In this document: one piece after another, positions 12,271-16,141 of the stretch
Position numbering within the stretch: the stretch's first letter is position 1
How the letters are laid out: every line of letters starts with the position of its first letter
DNA from: a virus
Length of the DNA stretch: 24,170 nt
Virus record (IMG/VR): IMGVR_UViG_3300005519_000012
Span: 1 to 24,170 of that record
Strand: one strand, 5' to 3'
Notes under the pieces: model-generated
Told to the model about the DNA's origin: nothing
Databases searched by the model: none
The model's input: only the letters and a program-made list of their open reading frames with translations
Position numbers and translations under genes: made by a program

Positions 12271-13068
12271 ATGCATCTTTCCATCAGCAAACTCCTGAAA
12301 CACCTGCTCATCAACTTTTTCCGCTTCAACGCCGCCGATGACGGTGGTGGAGGTGGCACGGCGCCGGTAATCACTCCTGAAATCCAGGCTGTGATCGACG
12401 CCGCGGTGGCCGACAGCGTGAGGGGCCTCAAGGCCAAGAACGACGAGCTGATCGGCGCCGAGAAGAAGCTCAAAGAGCAGATGAAGCAGTACGACGGCAT
12501 CGACCCGGTCAAGACCAAGGAAATGTTGGCCCGCCTGGAAAACGATGCCGAAGCAAAGCTCATTGCTGACGGGAAGATCAACGAGGTCATCGAAGCGCGC
12601 ACCGAAAAGCTGCGTGCAGAGCTTGGCCGGCAGGTTAAAGAAGCCCAGGAAGTAGCGGCGGCAGAAGCAAAACGCGCCACCGCCTACGAAGGCCGCGTGC
12701 TGGATGACGCCTTGCGCGCAGCAGCCACGACCGCCGGGCTGCATCCCCATGCGATCGAAGACGCCCTGTTTCGCGGGCGCGCCATGTTCAAACTCAACCA
12801 GGACGGCCAGGCCGTACAGCTGGGAGACGATGGGCAGCCGGTTCTGGGGAAGGATGGCAAGAGCCCCTTCAGCCCGTCCGAATGGCTCGACAGCATGAAA
12901 GAGAAGGCACCGCACTGGTTCCCAGCCGGGAATGCCGGTAGCGGTGGTGGCGCAGGTGGCTTAAAGGGCCAGCAAGGTGCCAAAACAATGCAACGCAGTC
13001 AATTCGATCAACTGGACCCCGTGGCCAAGAAGGCGGCCATGGATGCAGGTACAGCGCTGGTCGACTGA
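12271..13068 (+). CDS. Scaffold-like prohead protein
   Basis: 265 residues with AAGGGG at good spacing. After a short hydrophobic-basic start (SKLLKHLLINFFRF) and a Gly run, residues about 35-150 are charged, helical and coiled-coil-like (KAKNDELIGAEKKLKEQMKQ, EARTEKLRAELGRQVKEAQE). A short C-terminal segment after a Gly-rich linker (MQRSQFDQLDPVAKKAAMD) is of the type that binds coat protein. Composition and location immediately before the coat gene fit a scaffolding protein that shapes the prohead and then leaves. The family is not proven. Confidence 0.65.
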   Translation: MHLSISKLLKHLLINFFRFNAADDGGGGGTAPVITPEIQAVIDAAVADSVRGLKAKNDELIGAEKKLKEQMKQYDGIDPVKTKEMLARLENDAEAKLIADGKINEVIEARTEKLRAELGRQVKEAQEVAAAEAKRATAYEGRVLDDALRAAATTAGLHPHAIEDALFRGRAMFKLNQDGQAVQLGDDGQPVLGKDGKSPFSPSEWLDSMKEKAPHWFPAGNAGSGGGAGGLKGQQGAKTMQRSQFDQLDPVAKKAAMDAGTALVD

Positions 13069-13089
13069 TTGCTCCCTCAAGCACTACGA

Positions 13090-13114
13090 AGCCCGCTCTC
13101 TGCGGGCTTTTTTT
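13090..13114 (+). terminator. Intrinsic terminator between scaffold and coat genes
   Basis: AGCCCGC (13090-13096) pairs with GCGGGCT (13102-13108) around TCTCT, with a seven-T run. It lies only about 15 bases before the coat start codon. Confidence 0.85.
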
Positions 13115-13129
13115 ATGGGCGCTTCAATC

Positions 13130-14407
13130 ATGAAAAAAGCACTTCAGTTGTACACCGTCGTCGCAGCCGCGATCGCCGGATTCTTCGCGGGCATGGCCGA
13201 GATCGCGTTCTGCCACTTGCACAACCACATGGCACGACAGGGCATGATCCTCGGCGCCAACACCCTGACCGGGCTGATCCCAACGATCTATAACGCGGCC
13301 GACGTCGTTTCCCGTGAGCTCGTCGGGCTGATTCCGGCGGTCTCGTCCGACATGCAATTCACGCGGGCGGCGGTAGGTCAGGTGGTTTCGTCCCCCGTGA
13401 CTGGGGCAGCAACCGCCACCGATATCACGCCGGCCGTGACGCCACCGAACGATGGCGACCAAACTGTCAACGCGATCAACATGACGATCACCAAGGCGCG
13501 CCGCGTGCCGATCCGGTGGAACGGCGAAGAAAAGCTCGGCCTGGACAACAACGGGGCAAAGTTCAACATCATCTTCCGCGACCAGGTTGCGCAAGCTATG
13601 CGCACGCTGACCAACGAGGTTGAGTCGGACCTCGCGGCGTTGCACGCGTTCGCGTCGCGTGCCTACGGTACGGCCGGCACCACGCCGTTCGCCAGCAATC
13701 TGGGCGATCCAGCACAAATGCGCAAGATCCTGGCCGATAACGGCGCACCACCGACCGACATGCAGCTGGTCATCGACACCTCGGCGGGCGCCGCCATGCG
13801 CACTCTGGCGCAGCTGACCAAAGCGAATGAAGCAGCGGACACTTCGCTGCTGCGCCGCGGTGTGCTGCTGGACATCCACGGTTTCGCGATTCGCGAATCG
13901 GCCGGTATCAAGACCTCGGTCGCAGGTACCGGCTCGGGCGCGACCACGAATGCGACCGGCTACCCTGTGGGCGCGACAGTGATCACGTTGGCATCTGCGG
14001 GTACTGGCACGTTGCTGGCCGGGGATGCTGTCTCGTTTGCCGGCGACACGAACAAGTATCTGCTGGGCAGCGGGGACGCCGACACTTCCAACGGCGGCAC
14101 CATCACCCTGGCGGCACCAGGTCTGCGCAAGGCAATCCCTGCCGCAGCGACAGCGATTACCGTGGTCGCCGCTGCTACGCGCAACATGGCATTTGCCCGC
14201 TCGGCGATCCAGCTCGCAACCCGCGCGCCGGCGCTGCCGCCGCAGGGTGACAGTGCAGTTGATCGCCAACTGGTGACCGACCCGGTGAGCGGCCTGACGT
14301 TCGAAATCGCGATGTACGCCCAATATCGTCAAATGCAATACGAAGTGTCGATGGCATGGGGCGTGAAAGCGGTGAAGACGGAACACATGGGGATTCTGCT
14401 CGGCTAA
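13130..14407 (+). CDS. Major capsid protein, P22 coat-like family
   Basis: 425 residues as called. ANTLTGLIPTIYNAADVVSR, then ELVGLIPAVSSDM and ITKARRVPIRWNGEE, is the signature of P22-type coat proteins. A later segment (TVITLASAGTGTLLAGDAVSFAG) corresponds to the inserted domain of that family. About 40 residues precede the normal family start and contain a hydrophobic run (TVVAAAIAGFFAGMAEIAF, 9-27). Internal ATGs at 13229 and 13244 would remove it, but neither has a ribosome site, and the ATG at 13130 is also weak. Coat protein forms the capsid shell on the scaffold encoded upstream. A terminator follows. Confidence 0.85.
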   Translation: MKKALQLYTVVAAAIAGFFAGMAEIAFCHLHNHMARQGMILGANTLTGLIPTIYNAADVVSRELVGLIPAVSSDMQFTRAAVGQVVSSPVTGAATATDITPAVTPPNDGDQTVNAINMTITKARRVPIRWNGEEKLGLDNNGAKFNIIFRDQVAQAMRTLTNEVESDLAALHAFASRAYGTAGTTPFASNLGDPAQMRKILADNGAPPTDMQLVIDTSAGAAMRTLAQLTKANEAADTSLLRRGVLLDIHGFAIRESAGIKTSVAGTGSGATTNATGYPVGATVITLASAGTGTLLAGDAVSFAGDTNKYLLGSGDADTSNGGTITLAAPGLRKAIPAAATAITVVAAATRNMAFARSAIQLATRAPALPPQGDSAVDRQLVTDPVSGLTFEIAMYAQYRQMQYEVSMAWGVKAVKTEHMGILLG

Positions 14408-14438: not shown

Positions 14439-14468
14439 CATCCGGGGCTGCGGCCCCGGATGTTTCCT
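14439..14468 (+). terminator. Intrinsic terminator behind the coat gene
   Basis: CATCCGGGGC (14439-14448) pairs perfectly with GCCCCGGATG (14453-14462) around TGCG. The tail TTTCCTTA is short on T, so termination may be partial, or the hairpin may protect the coat messenger. Confidence 0.7.
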
Positions 14469-14493: not shown

Positions 14494-14748
14494 ATGAGCG
14501 ATTCGACGGAAACGATCAAAATCAAACCGTCGCACGAGTCTCAAGGCGACTACGTGCTGATCAACAAGTCTGAGTTCGACGAGACGGTCCACGAACTCTT
14601 CGACTCCGACGGCGTGACCAAGAAGACATCGGACGGCATGAACGTGGACCAGATCAAGGCCGCATTGGCCGAAAAGAAGATCGCCATCCCCGACGGTGTG
14701 ACCAAGAAGACCGAGTTGGCCGCGCTACTGGATAAATTTCAGACCTGA
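14494..14748 (+). CDS. Small virion-region protein with C-terminal HeH/SAP-like segment
   Basis: 84 residues behind AGGAG. The N-terminal half is charged (ETIKIKPSHESQGDYVLINK). The C-terminal 35 residues (MNVDQIKAALAEKKIAIPDG, then VTKKTELAALLDKF) have the helix-extended-helix look of small phage HeH/SAP-like domains. The motif GVTKKT occurs twice (about residues 40-45 and 68-73). Position after the coat gene suggests a head-associated or connector accessory role. It overlaps the end of the convergent gene by 10 bases. Confidence 0.65.
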   Translation: MSDSTETIKIKPSHESQGDYVLINKSEFDETVHELFDSDGVTKKTSDGMNVDQIKAALAEKKIAIPDGVTKKTELAALLDKFQT

Positions 14749-15656
14749 GGAGCTAAAACGGACGGGTCGCGAATAACTTCATCAAGCTGGCAAAAAAGAA
14801 ATTCAGCCGCCGGGGAAAAACGTAGATCAGAAAACGCTCCGCTCGCTTTCAGCTGAGGCCAGTCCGACCAGGATTGTTGACTGAACGCGACATGGTAAAG
14901 AGTGAGGAGGCGCTCGGCATGCCCGATTCGCGAATTCATGATCCCTTTGTATGTGACTTTGGTCCGATCGGGAATTTCTTGCGCTTCCAGCCAAAGCAGG
15001 AGCTCAATGAGAGTCAGTGCGACCGGGTTGACGGAAGTCCAGTGAAAATTTGTGATGCTCTGCCAGGCCGAATGTACGTTTAAGTAGCCATGTCGAAGCA
15101 TATCCGGCGCCATTGGGTTGGCGAACGAAAATGTTGGATCTCGTGCCTCTGGATGATCATTGCCCAAATCGACCAGCAGGTAATCGCCGGTGTTGTTGTA
15201 AATGATACTGTTGAGCGCATCGGCCCCTTGACTTTTTCCGGAGCGGGCAGCTGCCACTACCTCAAGATAAAATTTTACGAGAGAAAAAAATGTCGCTTCA
15301 AACCGCGACAGATTTGCTGTTTCCTGCTGGGCGGCAAGAATTTTTCGAGTCTCCGCGAGGTCTTCTTTCGCGGTTCGTAGCTCATCTTTTTGCATTCTGA
15401 TGGTAAAGAACAACGCGATGATCGTGACGAGGCCGATCGCGGGGTTCAAGATTCCCCCGAAATAATCACCAACTTGGCCGAGCTGACTCATGCCATAGGG
15501 CGGCGCATGGAATTTTGCCACCACCAGAAAGCCAATCAATAGCATGGCGACCGCACCAACAAACAGTGTTGCACCGTATAGCAATTTTTCCTCGATAGAC
15601 AGCTGGGAGTAATAGTTGCGCGCTCGGCTTACACGGCCATTAACGTTTTTTGTCAT
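14739..15656 (-). CDS. Membrane protein resembling putative phage abortive-infection proteins (putAbiC-like)
   Basis: 305 residues from the ATG at 15656-15654, behind AGGAAG; an upstream ATG at 15716 lacks such a site. Two membrane segments (about 25-47 and 69-86) enclose QVGDYFGGILNPAIG. A charged coiled coil follows (MQKDELRTAKEDLAETRKIL), then SRFEATFFSLVKFYLEV. This order, with GDYFGG-LNP and F-E-x-T-F-F, is the N-terminal signature of the putAbiC family. The C-terminal half is not clearly recognised. It lies leftward inside the head genes, is less GC-rich than its neighbours and has its own ribosome site, so it is probably lysogeny-expressed cargo for excluding other phages. That activity is inferred from family resemblance only. 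Confidence 0.7.
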   Translation of the reverse strand: MTKNVNGRVSRARNYYSQLSIEEKLLYGATLFVGAVAMLLIGFLVVAKFHAPPYGMSQLGQVGDYFGGILNPAIGLVTIIALFFTIRMQKDELRTAKEDLAETRKILAAQQETANLSRFEATFFSLVKFYLEVVAAARSGKSQGADALNSIIYNNTGDYLLVDLGNDHPEARDPTFSFANPMAPDMLRHGYLNVHSAWQSITNFHWTSVNPVALTLIELLLWLEAQEIPDRTKVTYKGIMNSRIGHAERLLTLYHVAFSQQSWSDWPQLKASGAFSDLRFSPAAEFLFCQLDEVIRDPSVLAPQV

Positions 15657-15736
15657 TGTCGCTTCCTGTTGTTTTTCTGAGGGAACTATCTTAAACGAAC
15701 CTCGGGGCGACAGCATTTTCCGTAGAGAGAGTATTT

Positions 15737-16141
15737 ATGCCCCTGACCGCCGCGCAACTGACCGACACACGCCGCTACATGGGATACCAAGTGGCCGGAA
15801 CGACCATGCCGATCACCGGCGACAGCGACATCGTCTATGGGGCGTTCGGCATGGTGACGATGTCGCTGTTCACCCGCTTGACGACTTTGACTGCCAGCGA
15901 GGAACAGGTGCTCACCGATAAGTTCCTGACCCGCCTGAATGAGCTCGAGGACGACATTTTTGGGTCTCGCGACAACCTCGACACGTCGAAGGCGGCAGTG
16001 TGGGTGCACAACGATCTCGAAATCGCAGACCGATCTGCCTTGTACAAGCGCATTCGCATGGAGATGTGCCGGTTCATCGGCTTTGCCGCCGGCCCCGGGC
16101 TGTGTGGTGGTGGCGCGTCCGTCTCTTTGGTGCGCGCGTAA
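15737..16141 (+). CDS. Head-tail connector-region protein
   Basis: 134 residues. The start TAAQLTDTRRYMGYQ and a central helical part (TASEEQVLTDKFLTRLNELE, KAAVWVHNDLEIADRSALYK) resemble small head-completion proteins by layout. It is the first structural gene after the interrupting minus-strand gene and is coupled to the next by TAATG at 16139-16143. The exact family was not identified. The position between coat and tail-completion genes is the main evidence. Confidence 0.6.
   Translation: MPLTAAQLTDTRRYMGYQVAGTTMPITGDSDIVYGAFGMVTMSLFTRLTTLTASEEQVLTDKFLTRLNELEDDIFGSRDNLDTSKAAVWVHNDLEIADRSALYKRIRMEMCRFIGFAAGPGLCGGGASVSLVRA

Follow-up and report, generated by a model that had tools for sequence, protein, structure and literature searches.

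The window analysed here, the whole 24,170-base virus record, contains terminase, portal, scaffold, P22-type coat, tail sheath and tape measure genes, a set that marks the phage as contractile-tailed, with a coat of the P22 type. No integrase or other lysogeny gene was found in this 24 kb fragment; an integrase is present in four of five related records, which suggests that the lineage is probably temperate. The features at the locus under study are the following.

12977..14407, (+): major capsid protein, P22 coat type (PF11651, 2.2e-10; phrog_283, 3.9e-98)
14439..14462, (+): terminator-like hairpin after the capsid gene, 10 pairs followed by TTTCCTT
14494..14748, (+): small head-region gene, left flank of the insertion site (phrog_19159)
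14739..15656, (-): putAbiC-type gene, 305 aa, from its open reading frame and homology
15657..15736, (-): 80-nt leader of the putAbiC-type gene, reaching to the divergent head gene and containing AGGAAG
15688..15698, (-): TCGTTTAAGAT, candidate promoter element with TAAGAT as -10, 31 nt before the ATG
15737..16141, (+): phage gene of 134 aa, right flank of the insertion site (phrog_14539), probably a head completion or connector gene

The original prediction described a leftward gene with two membrane segments, GDYFGG-LNP and FEATFF marks, lying among head genes on the opposite strand, and each of these points held. The minus-strand frame starts with an ATG at 15656, ends with a TGA at 14741-14739, is preceded by AGGAAG as ribosome-binding site and has family homology; the translation contains GDYFGGILNP and FEATFF together with two hydropathy peaks. 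It is located antisense between rightward head genes, with the P22-type coat gene upstream and the phage-specific families phrog_14539, 14605 and 13532 downstream, and its 3' end overlaps that of the small gene by 10 bases. An alternative frame from 15716 would comprise 325 codons, without the AGGAAG signal. Because antisense shadow frames longer than this gene (420, 430 and 556 codons) are common in the GC-rich window, the length of a frame alone proves nothing, and we regard 14739-15656 as a real gene on account of its homology (PHROG 8999 and tblastn, see below).

Variable cargo at a junction in the head genes

The putAbiC-type gene has a GC content of 0.507, the minimum of all 918-base windows, compared with a window mean of 0.601, and a GC3 of 0.54 compared with 0.69-0.84 in the phage genes. 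Related loci were collected via the capsid and flank genes; for the flank gene, a survey covering 399 genomes from one order and 385 from one class turned up only distant relatives. In ~30 related loci the gap between the small gene and the 134-aa gene is at most 33 bases, i.e., the junction is empty, and in two further loci the distance from the capsid gene to the flank gene is only 249 bases. One locus (L011) carries a homologue at the same junction and in the same orientation, with 37% identity over 304 residues. Three others carry unrelated sense-strand inserts of 1.4-2.1 kb at this junction, as listed.

L053:4403-5773, sense: GDSL lipase/acylhydrolase (PF13472, 8.4e-13)
L012:8160-9956 and L013:8359-9864, sense: unrecognised proteins of ~500-600 aa

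The junction therefore tolerates varied cargo. The survey of the locus in relatives that had been envisaged thus bears out the status of the gene as cargo, together with its foreign GC content, and the separate acquisition proposed on the basis of its low GC content (50.7% vs 60.1%) is additionally backed by the empty site. A comparable situation is found at the defence hotspots of P2-like phages and P4-like satellites (PMC9122126), where a small, high-turnover locus also lies between two conserved phage genes; these differ in lineage and site, and here the defensive look is limited to the antisense insert, one of four kinds at the junction.

The neighbouring genes of the window and of L011 are mosaic, with 51% identity for the capsid, 34% for the small gene and 68-91% for the other genes tested, such that a single old insertion is indistinguishable from two separate events. 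The diverged pair of homologues at the same site and the series of empty sites nonetheless amount to a clean natural experiment, in which what would be a single-gene defence cargo has been loaded without breaking the head operon. A second variable junction was observed between the 134-aa gene and a 261-aa gene, where L096:2729-3154 and L081:10083-10541 carry a sense-strand gene whose product starts with MTVIAWDG-TLAADKR and resembles, by eye, a proteasome-like (Ntn) hydrolase.

A distant member of the putAbiC family

PHROG 8999 matched the N-terminal 107 residues of the window protein (E 4e-21), and tblastn hits to homologues of the N-terminal part came from phages and plasmids, with several carrying the annotation "putative phage abortive infection protein". 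The window protein itself matched no PADLOC, Pfam or NCBIfam model and stayed below the gathering cut-off of PF16872, putAbiC (22 bits). Scans of genomes with single proteins or with pair patterns gave no close relatives and alignment patterns were required, one alignment used for scanning proving too diverse; the alignment-based scans yielded 80 chromosomal and 73 viral loci, and an iterated profile yielded 161 distinct members. The members share with the window protein a transmembrane hairpin with GD(F/Y)FGG-LNP, more generally GDxxGG-LNP, a long helix ending in FExTFF and a C-terminal helical domain. When 10 members were scanned with PF16872, eight matched, each over the C-terminal 70-90 residues. 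Thus, the suggestion that the N-terminal half carries the abortive-infection signature has to be corrected, since the named putAbiC domain is C-terminal and the conserved N-terminal hairpin lies outside the Pfam model.

The predicted organization of the protein is as follows.

Residues 1-23: cytoplasmic, followed by TM1 (~24-50) and a short outer loop, predicted
GDYFGGILNP and TM2 (~62-88), then a long helix through FEATFF (119-124), predicted
Residues ~137-305: C-terminal helical putAbiC-like domain

The hydropathy peaks span ~23-53 and 65-88, and from the charge pattern, with five K/R before TM1 and none in the loop, both termini would be cytoplasmic. An AlphaFold model of the whole protein (pLDDT 87, pTM 0.70) consists of the transmembrane hairpin, a helix of ~80 residues from TM2 through FEATFF and a helical C-terminal domain, which modelled alone gave a pLDDT of 86 and a pTM of 0.81. 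Fold searches produced no match above background against the PDB, for the whole model and for the C-terminal domain, or against BFVD, for the whole model, an absence that does not equal a new fold; an HMM profile search of PDB sequences gave one chance match (E 1).

The C-terminal half had been described as unrecognised and as the possible site of a new effector, a view that did not survive the profile tests. A first-round profile, built from the C-terminal halves of 23 typical members and excluding both the window protein and its L011 homologue, placed both ahead of every one of 2,000 shuffled decoys, with values of 8e-9 for the homologue and 0.008 for the window protein. In a second round, with the profile enriched with further members and both proteins again excluded, the window C-terminal half scored 9.7e-4 and the homologue 1.1e-11, while the best of 2,000 shuffled decoys reached 1.3. 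Since a profile made without it recovers it above the decoys, and since residues 202-275 of the homologue score 17.2 bits against PF16872 (below the 22-bit cut-off), the C-terminal half of the window protein is, as judged from these alignments, a diverged putAbiC domain. A new effector domain in this half was rejected on the basis of both decoy-controlled tests. The family reading of the original prediction, a putAbiC-type membrane protein, is accordingly upheld by PHROG 8999, the tblastn annotations and the C-terminal profile, and by sequence comparison the window protein is a distant new member, too diverged for the Pfam model, of a known, poorly studied family of suspected defence proteins. 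A search of the open literature found no paper naming putAbiC or PF16872.

The divergence extends to RAQLS, the most conserved C-terminal motif of the relatives and a frequent, although not universal, one among members, which reads NSRIG in the window protein and DVQIS in the L011 homologue; given this degenerate motif, the activity of the window protein could be altered or lost. Conserved residues of the window protein include E120, Y236 and E248. Additionally, R249-x5-H255 fits the R-x4-6-H pattern of HEPN proteins, and because most relatives have N at the position of the H, these two residues are probably not a conserved catalytic pair; the fold searches gave no match. Of the members with 200 aa or more (146), a typical C-terminal domain is recognisable in 86 and not in the other 60. 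Because the first profile places the window protein among these 60, true domain exchange is at most this frequent.

Proteins of the putAbiC type are common in proteobacteria, phages, plasmids and cassette arrays. A Vibrio alginolyticus plasmid carries a putAbiC gene (L006:2860-3714) within an array of the kind typical of Vibrio integron cassettes, in which DUF3265 genes are repeated, and a Vibrio inovirus provides a further mobile context. A human gut phage (MT836345.1; L004:1340-3984) has two putAbiC genes close together on one strand. The antisense placement recurs in a Shewanella phage (MZ568827.1; L003:2948-5774), where a gene encoding a putAbiC-type N-terminal hairpin lies antisense between Mu-like head genes, next to a gene for a reverse transcriptase (RVT_1) and a regulator of the Cro/C1 type; the C-terminal half of the hairpin protein is not recognisable as putAbiC, and the region is possibly a multi-gene defence insert.

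Function and alternative readings

Typical relatives of the window protein matched the PADLOC models of lactococcal AbiP (best 1.8e-12) and AbiC (best 1.7e-8), their values ranging from 1.8e-12 to 1e-7, and the L011 homologue reached 0.0085 with AbiC; the window protein differs from AbiP and AbiC in lacking a direct match, and the lactococcal proteins belong to Gram-positive systems. Both AbiP and AbiC of Lactococcus are plasmid-borne. These matches of the relatives and the properties of AbiP and PdpSau make a membrane-anchored abortive-infection effector the most likely function. AbiP is cited in PMC10127798 as a membrane-anchored protein that binds nucleic acid. In the same paper, PdpSau, a membrane protein encoded by Staphylococcus aureus prophages and similar to AbiP by modelling, causes Kayvirus infection to abort, the membrane being damaged and replication of the phage DNA stalling (PMC10127798). 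The window protein is likened to PdpSau by description, as a prophage-type, membrane-anchored protein compared with AbiP, and differs from it in having two TM helices in place of a single N-terminal one at 5-27.

We therefore favor, with a probability of about 0.6, the reading of the putAbiC-type gene as a moron, a single antisense accessory gene at a variable head-operon junction that would encode an AbiP/AbiC-like membrane-anchored abortive-infection effector. The protein would be produced at a low level from a promoter in its own leader in the prophage state, its membrane-held C-terminal domain would be triggered when a phage enters, by one of the early products or the nucleic acid of that phage, and the domain would then arrest replication of the phage or damage the membrane, such that infection aborts.

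The leader gives a weak hint of such a promoter. An identical 11-mer TCGTTTAAGAT lies 35 nt before the ATG of the L011 homologue, with no other copy in the window or in 254 loci (among which L094, L100 and L182 are the same contig as L011, and L001 is the window), and the two leaders aligned with a score of 49.5 compared with 21.9 for 300 shuffles (sd 6.0, maximum 43.5). No convincing -35 hexamer accompanies TAAGAT in the leader, and a scan with the sigma-70 consensus detected no strong promoter, none in the leader and one promoter-like site inside the gene on the same strand. The element, shared by two sequences only, may also reflect common descent without function. A terminator-like hairpin followed by seven T lies inside the gene (window 15291-15310, minus strand); it is formed by the FEATFFS codons and is probably a by-product of that motif.

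The main rival, which we consider unlikely on balance, is superinfection exclusion, where the two-helix protein would block DNA entry of related phages and the C-terminal domain would be a scaffold or docking part. A small inner-membrane protein on a phage of a probably temperate lineage suits this role, and the family is best conserved in its GDxxGG-LNP hairpin, while no canonical C-terminal domain is recognisable in 60 of the 146 members. However, relatives also occur on plasmids, in cassette arrays and on chromosomes, and the C-terminal domain of the relatives resembles AbiP/AbiC.

The drift of RAQLS to NSRIG here and to DVQIS in the L011 homologue could also mark a decaying or repurposed member that has lost its defence function, and the same-site homologues share 37% identity while their neighbours, the mosaic capsid and small genes excepted, mostly share 68-91%. 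We judge this improbable, as the protein retains an intact 305-codon frame, a good ribosome-binding site, a full-length alignment with its homologue and a confident model, and an arms race also predicts fast change. Position among structural genes is what would recommend a virion- or lysis-related membrane protein of the phage itself, a reading made very improbable by the opposite strand, the foreign GC content, the absence from the junction in nearly all relatives and the relatives outside phages.

Returning to an abortive-infection effector, a more elaborate and rather doubtful version would have the P22-coat myovirus lineage and the Mu-like Shewanella phage independently placing antisense putAbiC-type genes with their own promoters in the head operon, where antisense transcription could both arm the defence and silence the head genes, and where the diverged C-terminal domain would have a changed trigger or target. 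A tally of neighbour strands over the family loci revealed no general rule of antisense placement. Among the chromosomal neighbours of these loci (top 25 families, rough gene calls), no enrichment of PADLOC matches emerged, as such matches occurred both near the family gene and farther off.
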